From: an uncultured Clostridia bacterium
GTDB lineage: Bacteria > Bacillota > Clostridia > Christensenellales > Borkfalkiaceae
NCBI GenBank assembly: GCA_944368925.1
Contig: CALVXG010000008.1
Span: 1-64,000 of the forward strand
Length of the DNA: 64,000 nt
Direction: 5' to 3'
The notes under the pieces are model-generated. The model was not told the DNA's origin and searched no databases. It worked only from the letters and a program-made list of their open reading frames with translations. This document shows positions 52,975 through 54,947 of this stretch, in pieces. Numbering within the stretch: position 1 is the stretch's first letter; each line of letters begins with the position of its first letter. The position numbers and the translations under genes were made by a program.

Positions 52975-53658
52975 ATGGTGTATTGTATTTCGGATATACA
53001 CGGATATTATGATCAGTTTTGCCGACTGATGGATAAAATTCATTTTAAAGAGGACGATCGGCTGTATGTTTTGGGGGATATGATCGATAAGGGGCCGGAC
53101 AGCATCCGTCTCGTGAAGTTGTTGTTTTCTTTGCCGAACGTATTTTGCATTGCGGGAAATCACGAGTATGATTTTTTAAAATATTATCGCGGGCTGATGC
53201 GGCAGACGGAAGATTACGACGGGATATTGGAGCGTTTGCGGGAATATTTTTCGGACGGGTCTTTGCTTGACTGGGAGATTGTGGACAAGATCGATCTGCT
53301 TCCTTATTATATAGAAACGGAAGATTTTATCGGGGTGCATGCGGGGATCCCCGTGCAGGGCAACCGACTGACGGAGGTTGAAAGGGCGACGTGTGAACAA
53401 CTCGTATATGACAGAAAATTCAAAGAAAGGGAAGTCATGCCGCAAGGCGGGAAGTGCGTGTTGTTCGGGCACACGCCCGTGCAGTATCTGACGGGAAAGG
53501 ACGAGATTTTGTTTTATCCGCGGCGCGCCGAAAACGCGCGCAGCGGCAACATTGCAGATTATTGCAAAATAGCGTTGGATACGGGGTGTTGGATCGGCGG
53601 CGTTTTGGGGTGTATCTGTACGGATACCTGCAGGTGTTTTTACGTACAAAAGCGGTGA
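52975..53658 (+). CDS. Metallophosphoesterase (Ser/Thr phosphatase or Ap4A hydrolase-like)
   Basis: A 227-residue calcineurin-type phosphatase with every metal motif: MVYCISDIHGYYDQF (D-x-H), YVLGDMIDKGPDS (GD-x-x-D-x-G), FCIAGNHEYDFL (GNHE) and CVLFGHTPVQYL (GH-x-x). This matches the PrpE/ApaH-like group, which removes phosphate from proteins or splits diadenosine polyphosphates. The start ATG has only a weak ribosome site. The next gene, a degenerate polymerase-like protein, starts 52 bases after its stop with no terminator between, so the two may be co-transcribed. Confidence 0.87.
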   Translation: MVYCISDIHGYYDQFCRLMDKIHFKEDDRLYVLGDMIDKGPDSIRLVKLLFSLPNVFCIAGNHEYDFLKYYRGLMRQTEDYDGILERLREYFSDGSLLDWEIVDKIDLLPYYIETEDFIGVHAGIPVQGNRLTEVERATCEQLVYDRKFKEREVMPQGGKCVLFGHTPVQYLTGKDEILFYPRRAENARSGNIADYCKIALDTGCWIGGVLGCICTDTCRCFYVQKR

Positions 53659-53709
53659 GGGAAAAGCGCTGAATTGCAAAATTGAAAAACAGAGGGGAAA
53701 GGAGATTGT

Positions 53710-54651
53710 ATGGATCGGAATTTTATCGAGCAGGCGGAGAGGGTGCCTGATTTTTACGGAGACAGGGCGCTGGCGGTGCTGATTCAGACGGCGGAGAGCG
53801 GGGCAAAGCGTTATTTCGGAAAAATTGACGGCGACATGAGGGGGCGTCTGACGCATGAGTTTGCGTTGATCCGCGCGACGAACACTGCGAAATTGTTTCT
53901 GTATTGGGCATATGCCGCCGCGACGGTAAAGCGGAAAACGTATCCGTACGTCTCAGGCATACAGAACTGTTCTCTTGTCTCTTGCTGTCTGGGTATTACC
54001 AAAGTAAACCCCATGCGGACGGGCAGCCGTTTCGAGCGGCTTTTGAACGGACAAAGCACCCGTATACCCGCTCTGTGCATCGAAGTGCCGAAAGGAAAGC
54101 GGGAAGAAGTGTGGGAGGCCCTTGCGCGGGAACGGGCGGACATGGTCGAAATAAGGGAGAACGACGAATATCCGGACATTCCCGCCGAGGATATGGAGGC
54201 GTTTTTCAAAAACCAAAAGTATGACGACAGGGAGATTTTGCGCGCGGCGGCCGAATCTTTGCGATTTGCCGGACAGAAAGGCACACCGTCTTCGATCGGC
54301 GATCTGGCCGAACTTGTTGTCTTAAAGAGGTATTCTCTCTTTACGGAAGAAAAGCCCGCCCTCCTGTACCAGGAAGACGTTGTCGGATTGTTGGAGGATG
54401 CGGGTTTTTCCTGCGAAGAAGCGGAAGTTTTGCGAAGAGTGCTTTCCAAAAAGTGCAGGACGGAAATCAATTTTTACCGAAACATACTCCTGCAGACGGC
54501 AAGGGCGGCGGGGCGCAGCGTCGAAGAGGCGGCGGCCGCGTTTTCCGCTTTGGAAAGGGAGGCCGGCCGGACATTTTGCCGCGCGTCGGCGACGGCAGAG
54601 GCACAATATCTGTATGCACAAATTTTTGTCAGAAAAAATGAAAAAAGGTAA
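53710..54651 (+). CDS. Degenerate DNA polymerase III alpha (DnaE)-like protein lacking catalytic residues
   Basis: A 313-residue protein that, read against DnaE, follows palm and fingers order. Residues 20-75 (GAKRYFGKIDGDMRGRLTHE) match the helices before the palm. Residues 83-130 match the palm core: SLVSCCLGITKVNPMRTG then SRFERLLN stands where DnaE has SLVAYLLGITDVDP and FERFLNP. The catalytic PDIDIDF becomes PALCIEV (120-126), so the two leading Asp are Ala and Cys. Residues 195-305 match the fingers: SIGDLAELVVLKRY, ALLYQEDVVGLLEDAGFS, EAEVLRRVLSKK and a final FNKSHA-like helix. PHP, thumb, OB and tau-binding parts are missing. It cannot polymerise as DnaE does; DNA or partner binding is possible. 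The start follows GAAAGGAG. I know no described family with this layout. Confidence 0.6.
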   Translation: MDRNFIEQAERVPDFYGDRALAVLIQTAESGAKRYFGKIDGDMRGRLTHEFALIRATNTAKLFLYWAYAAATVKRKTYPYVSGIQNCSLVSCCLGITKVNPMRTGSRFERLLNGQSTRIPALCIEVPKGKREEVWEALARERADMVEIRENDEYPDIPAEDMEAFFKNQKYDDREILRAAAESLRFAGQKGTPSSIGDLAELVVLKRYSLFTEEKPALLYQEDVVGLLEDAGFSCEEAEVLRRVLSKKCRTEINFYRNILLQTARAAGRSVEEAAAAFSALEREAGRTFCRASATAEAQYLYAQIFVRKNEKR

Positions 54652-54918: not shown

Positions 54919-54947
54919 TTGACGACGGTATAATTGTGTGCTATAAT
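54919..54947 (+). promoter_or_regulatory. Promoter of the LacI-headed sugar locus
   Basis: TTGACG (54919-54924), 17 bases, TATAAT (54942-54947). The stretch before it (54833-54915) is very rich in A and T, as an upstream promoter element would be. Confidence 0.8.

Follow-up and report, generated by a model that had tools for sequence, protein, structure and literature searches.

A conserved DnaE-like pseudo-polymerase and its candidate RecF-like partner in variable islands of one Clostridia family

Results

A stand-alone DnaE-like gene in an intact frame

The window analyzed here is a stretch of 64,000 nucleotides from a contig of an uncultured Clostridia bacterium (CALVXG010000008.1). Toward its end, a metallophosphoesterase gene is followed by an open reading frame for a protein of 313 amino acids (Table 1), which we call, together with its homologs, pseudo-DnaE. 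A preliminary description made from the sequence alone had taken the gene for a stand-alone DnaE-like protein in an intact frame with a good ribosome site, and both points hold. Pfam family PF07733 matched residues 24 to 139 (E 9.1e-12), and PF17657 matched residues 218 to 266 with an E value of 8.2e-4, at 19.2 bits and thus below its own cut-off of 22 bits. Ten DnaE-type models of NCBIfam matched the protein, each in two stretches. A family profile built from eight sequences matched Escherichia coli alpha (3.7e-23) in two colinear blocks, residues 292 to 420 and 684 to 769. PF07733 scored above cut-off in all nine clostridial loci described below and in a related protein from Alistipes, while PF17657 did so in one of the five clostridial proteins of an all-Pfam scan and in the Alistipes protein. 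The only other PF07733 match in the genome of the window is a normal DnaE with an open frame of 1258 codons, and tblastn with DnaE proteins found no further DnaE-derived pieces near pseudo-DnaE in the stretches searched.

Table 1. Features of the pseudo-DnaE locus in the window.
Feature	Position	Strand	Basis
Metallophosphoesterase gene (PF00149)	52975..53658	+	Pfam; 51 nt upstream of pseudo-DnaE
Ribosome-binding site AAAGGAG	53698..53704	+	Sequence; 5 nt before ATG
Pseudo-DnaE gene	53710..54651	+	Intact ORF, 313 aa; DnaE matches; AlphaFold2 model
Block 1 (part of PF07733): pre-palm helices and first strands of the DnaE palm	53779..54126	+	Profile match
Former RGSAAGS loop, reading SGIQNCS (aa 82-88)	53953..53973	+	Alignment; invariant N86 and S88 across the 8 compact proteins
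Former catalytic motif PDIDIDF, reading PALCIEV (aa 120-126)	54067..54087	+	Alignment
Point of the missing DnaE stretch (thumb, palm core, third Asp), about aa 149	54154..54156	+	Alignment
Block 2: fingers segment YQED...LRRVLSKK to O-helix region (aa 218-308)	54361..54633	+	Profile matches
Former O-helix region (FNKSHA), now RASATAEAQY (aa 291-300)	54580..54609	+	R291, A292, A298, Q299, and Y300 invariant in 8 compact proteins

Palm and fingers segments are retained

We aligned the compact proteins with 21 fragments of full-length DnaE. The alignment path led from the pre-palm helices through PDIDIDF and, after a gap, into the fingers (YQE, LRR, and O-helix). The window protein retains the pre-palm helices, the SLV..CLGIT region, and the YQE/LRR/O-helix segment of the fingers; the PHP, thumb, OB, and C-terminal parts are absent, as is the thumb/palm stretch between the two blocks, which carries the third catalytic Asp. 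The DnaE-like segment order proposed earlier, from the pre-palm helices to the FNKSHA region, is matched by the two colinear blocks in E. coli alpha. The list of absent domains likewise stands as given, with a length of only 313 residues and no DnaE piece nearby; however, the preliminary description was silent on the missing stretch between the blocks.

The AlphaFold2 model of the window protein had a pLDDT of 89.5 and a pTM of 0.88, but its fold is not independent of the homology, because the input alignment held the 21 DnaE fragments, which steer the model. When this DnaE-steered model was searched against the PDB with Foldseek, C-family polymerases accounted for all 15 matches at E ≤ 1e-3 (query TM 0.60 to 0.72; 7pu7 at 2.8e-8). 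In a viral library, the named top matches were phage DnaE-type polymerases. As modeled, the window protein has the palm-fingers fold of a C-family polymerase.

The former active site has lost catalytic residues and gained invariant ones

In E. coli numbering as given in PMC8485763, the catalytic columns are D401 and D403 and the steric-gate His is H760. The change of PDIDIDF to PALCIEV noted earlier was confirmed, and the loss of both palm aspartates is shared by homologs, since no Asp occupies either column in the nine distinct compact proteins (eight clostridial and one from Alistipes). The third catalytic Asp falls inside the missing stretch. In the window protein, the GRGS motif is lost as well, and the steric-gate column holds a Ser. 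Judged by its sequence, a protein without the three catalytic aspartates would not be a C-family polymerase in the enzymatic sense.

Twenty-three residues are invariant in the eight compact clostridial proteins. Sixteen of these fall in former active-site segments that total 64 residues (hypergeometric 1.4e-7) and that we delimited by judgment from known DnaE motifs after the alignment had been viewed; part of this enrichment is inherited, because the same segments are also conserved in DnaE. At their columns, none of the 21 DnaE rows carries Asn86, Gln299, or Tyr300, and a single one carries Arg291. Among the residues retained from DnaE are S88, E222, and R242; the DnaE counterparts of S88 and R242 play a role in dNTP binding. 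This pattern suggests that the old active-site cleft has been rebuilt as a binding site.

Pseudo-DnaE is rare, intact, and under selection

A query with the window protein matched 4 of 101 genomes, its own included, and a profile search matched 9 of 398 genomes of the Borkfalkiaceae family (E ≤ 1e-18). These carriers are G000 (the genome of the window), G002, G016, G018, G311, G216, G226, G220, and G118. The proteins of G216 and G226 are identical, which leaves eight distinct clostridial proteins, and these formed one clade in the tree (support 100/98). In agreement with the expectation of homologs of the same length, the proteins measured 300 to 320 amino acids from their likely starts (at most 342 from the first start codon), apart from G118, where the domain forms the C-terminal half of a 677-residue fusion with an unnamed island family (L050 2187-4220, minus strand). 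Among the matches listed for a sample of the order (396 genomes), no further compact member was found, the shortest other open frame being 503 amino acids. No further compact member was found in a class sample (391 genomes) at E ≤ 1e-23, a threshold that diverged members would escape. An origin from phages or plasmids was rejected, as tblastn of the window protein in phages and plasmids gave no match.

The frame is open in all nine carriers, each of which also encodes a full-length DnaE. For the six pairs with dS < 2, dN/dS was 0.28, 0.31, 0.15, 0.49, 0.26, and 0.20; dS was near saturation in most pairs, and the remaining pairs were saturated or nearly so. The earlier proposal that a catalytically dead, stand-alone DnaE palm-fingers protein is retained for some other purpose is supported by the profile match, the structural match, the similar length of the homologs, and the Asp losses they share. 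A functionless leftover of a decayed polymerase gene is barely credible. The islands do hold remnants, such as a chimeric DUF2779-WYL piece in G018; against this stand the nine open frames, the constant architecture, the dN/dS values below 0.5, the ribosome-binding site in the window, and the new invariant residues. Pseudo-DnaE is thus a conserved pseudo-polymerase family of about 310 amino acids in which amino acid changes are held back by selection, found in few genomes of one Clostridia family and mostly in variable, gene-rich islands.

The window protein is only 25% and 30% identical to the DnaE of its own genome, and a recent duplication of the host gene was rejected on these grounds. The same values bear on the idea of a decoy, a mimic of the DnaE surface that soaks up phage proteins or rival toxins attacking the host replicase. 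A dead DnaE-like fold among defense-type neighbors would suit such a role, and the block 2 score against the own DnaE was the third best among 28 DnaE. However, a decoy would be expected to track the host surface more closely than these identities, pseudo-DnaE sits in a deep separate clade, and its block 1 score against the own DnaE was the lowest of the 28, the other 27 having been fetched by similarity and hence biased upward. We consider a decoy distinctly improbable.

A RecF-like gene often lies directly downstream

In six of the nine loci (G002, G018, G016, G311, G226, and G216), or five of eight if the near-identical loci of G216 and G226 are counted once, the gene directly downstream of pseudo-DnaE encodes a protein of 287 to 304 amino acids; the spacings in the six loci are +2, +10, +7, -10, -4, and -4 nt. 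Its N terminus resembles RecF by hhalign (P 7.7e-4, probability 25%; 1.0e-3 with five full rows), whereas ten column shuffles gave P values of at least 0.045. The place of Walker A reads, for example, GEKARAVF, GEDTRAVF, or GEETEEIF, so that the motif itself is lost. The N terminus of the G018 protein also matched PtuA in PADLOC (E 2.6e-4). The alignment gave no match among PDB profiles, the proteins had no Pfam match above cut-off, and the AlphaFold2 model (pLDDT 40) was unusable. The data hint at a kinship of this gene with RecF.

The RecF-like gene was present in 10 of the 398 genomes. Seven of these also carry pseudo-DnaE, which leaves three genomes with the RecF-like gene alone, two with pseudo-DnaE alone, and 386 with neither (Fisher p 1.4e-11, with shared descent ignored). 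In one of the three genomes with the RecF-like gene alone, the contig is cut inside that gene. The genome of the window retains only the C-terminal 180 to 210 residues or so of the RecF-like protein, 20 kb away at positions 74717-75328 of the contig.

DnaE and RecF relatives normally bind primer-template or gap DNA. The two proteins might accordingly be imagined to recognize gapped or primed DNA jointly and without catalysis, for example at phage forks. The coupling of the two genes and the retention of S88 and R242 and of a basic side chain at position 291 agree with this, but pseudo-DnaE lacks the thumb, OB, and C-terminal parts, Walker A is lost from the RecF-like protein, and positive charge is not constant, the pI ranging from 4.9 to 9.4 over the eight proteins. 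We therefore regard joint reading of a DNA structure as unlikely, and the charge likewise does not favor the generic DNA-binding role raised in the preliminary description.

The islands and their other genes

WYL, DUF2779, SLOG, or ADP-ribosylglycohydrolase genes occur in six of the nine loci, within examined stretches of 6.9 to 20 kb. An intact WYL gene is present in five (G002, G016, G226, G216, and G220) and a remnant in G018. The chimeric piece of the latter genome (L008 6244-6567) joins parts of DUF2779 with both ends of a WYL gene, which points to recombination within the island. No PADLOC family matched the window pseudo-DnaE at E ≤ 0.01, and, apart from the Alistipes DnaE, the scanned island proteins drew only weak, unrelated matches from NCBIfam.

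The genes that separate pseudo-DnaE from the RecF-like remnant in the genome of the window include a LacI-type regulator and, of the sugar-uptake type, a solute-binding protein and a permease. A strong promoter-like match (54919-54947; 11/12, with TG before the second hexamer) lies ahead of the LacI-type gene. A second island piece was seen on the contig beyond the window, about 17 kb from pseudo-DnaE (L011 11777-16928), with an ADP-ribosylglycohydrolase gene (contig positions about 73448-74251; PF03747 6.6e-39) near the RecF-like C terminus and with small island families.

Island proteins of about 280 amino acids (L007 2667-3515, minus strand; L009 17197-18021; L046 11150-11998 and 12823-13656) show a likeness to FtsK in the surroundings of Walker A (hhalign P 1.3e-3 with a probability of 18%; at least 0.088 in ten shuffles). 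Their P-loop is absent, and the PDB, Pfam, and NCBIfam gave no support for the likeness. A DnaQ-type exonuclease was also observed (L009 15977-17038; PF00929 6.6e-20). By eye, its homolog in G226 (L047 2931-4025, minus strand) has lost the DIET and GHNxxFD motifs, and G118 holds two DnaQ-type copies that match the C-terminal part only.

The preliminary description had also considered a nucleotide sensor working with the adjacent phosphoesterase. This gene adjoins pseudo-DnaE in the window and has homologs in the G016 and G118 loci, and the retained S88 and R242 would fit nucleotide binding. On the other hand, the GRGS motif and the steric-gate His are lost, and the phosphoesterase is absent from the examined stretches of the other six loci, although such absences weigh little because these stretches span only 6.9 to 20 kb. 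With the phosphoesterase in three of nine loci versus the RecF-like gene directly downstream in six of nine, this proposal has become the weaker one, and we consider it improbable.

Dead DnaE relatives outside the family

We gathered 160 loci by similarity, which does not amount to a survey. Sorted by length alone, 145 of them have a frame of at least 750 codons at the match. The 15 shorter loci comprise two known members (L081 and L082), the Alistipes and Bifidobacterium proteins described below, L103 (split by a frameshift or gap, with the polymerase continuing in the next frame), five that run off the contig end, and five viral frames of 488 to 620 codons. One viral frame has the Asp motif; the other four stop within or close to an insertion at this site. 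The latter are DnaE-type frames (L191, L193, L225, and L233), and the insertions are perhaps inteins.

An Alistipes metagenome-assembled genome encodes a compact DnaE of 372 amino acids (JAGBWD010000024.1, L105 9929-11047) in which FAEIGLA replaces PDIDIDF and much of the same stretch between the blocks is missing (PF17657 9e-14; PF07733 8e-13). Its island (L105 389-11047) includes a phage-type integrase, a WYL regulator, a GmrSD gene (PF03235 3e-34; PADLOC HEC-06 7.6e-54), and a weak SprT-like match. In a tree that held 45 other DnaE rows, the Alistipes protein fell together with the compact clade (95/90), albeit on long branches, and kinship to Bacteroidota DnaE was not rejected by the AU test (p 0.194). 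The Alistipes protein may thus be a separate invention.

The protein of Bifidobacterium santillanense (NZ_JAFEJS010000001.1, L099 9035-10735; 566 amino acids) represents another cut of the polymerase than the compact proteins, with PHP (3e-42) and the PF07733 palm (2e-25) but an end before the fingers. PDIDIDF is replaced by FPILTLR, and the likely third Asp is, by eye, an Asn (LNILG). The gene lies between Vsr (PF03852 9e-29) and AbiH (PF14253 3e-23) genes in a defense-type setting (L099 8229-12238).

Discussion

Because it is kept intact in few relatives, usually beside a gene resembling an inactivated DNA-repair ATPase, pseudo-DnaE is a candidate for a new non-enzymatic protein family. The family is real and selected, and in the collection of papers searched we found no account of an inactive DnaE that stands alone, in agreement with the earlier statement that no such family was known. 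From sequence comparison, its members are most likely binding partners in defense-type islands. We give a probability of roughly 0.4 to the full reading, in which a selected pseudo-polymerase with a remodeled cleft is the binding partner of the RecF-like pseudo-ATPase in such islands.

We infer that pseudo-DnaE works as a non-catalytic binding subunit. Its presumably rebuilt cleft, with the new invariant N86, R291, Q299, and Y300 beside the retained S88, E222, and R242, would bind a ligand or a partner, for which a nucleotide, a phosphate-bearing end, and a protein are the likeliest candidates. Pseudo-DnaE could form a complex with the RecF-like pseudo-ATPase, and this pair would sense or sequester something when the cell is stressed or attacked by phages; one may guess that the WYL regulators of the islands control it. 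If this is true, a replicase core turned binding protein would put the C-family fold to a new use, and the gene pair offers a small, directly testable system.

A wider idea, quite unlikely in our estimate, is that disarmed copies of replication and repair machines have entered defense-type islands again and again, and in several phyla. In the Clostridia studied here, a dead DnaE, a RecF-like protein, and an FtsK-like protein, joined in one genus by a dead DnaQ-type exonuclease, would then jointly sense or soak up foreign replication complexes without catalysis, with the Alistipes case (beside WYL and GmrSD) and the Bifidobacterium case (between Vsr and AbiH) as parallels.

The islands described here share WYL, GmrSD-type, and SLOG genes with the WYL-associated defense islands as presented in PMC9122601; in contrast to these, no complete known defense system was identified in them, and their role in defense is putative. 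The N terminus of the G018 partner is similar to PtuA of Septu and to other RecF/OLD-like ATPases, but the partner is without Walker A, and by eye no PtuB-like nuclease was recognized beside it. Like ImuB, other inactive Y-family polymerases, and the dead-site PolX, as outlined in PMC12926913, pseudo-DnaE keeps a polymerase fold without catalysis. These proteins, however, belong to other polymerase families, and ImuB has an active DnaE2 as its partner, whereas no second DnaE gene was found near pseudo-DnaE in the stretches searched. Finally, compared with DnaE itself (Pol III alpha), pseudo-DnaE has about a quarter of the length and is without the PHP, thumb, OB, and C-terminal parts and the catalytic aspartates, but the two have in common the order of segments, the fold, and the SLV..CLGIT, YQE, and LRR elements.
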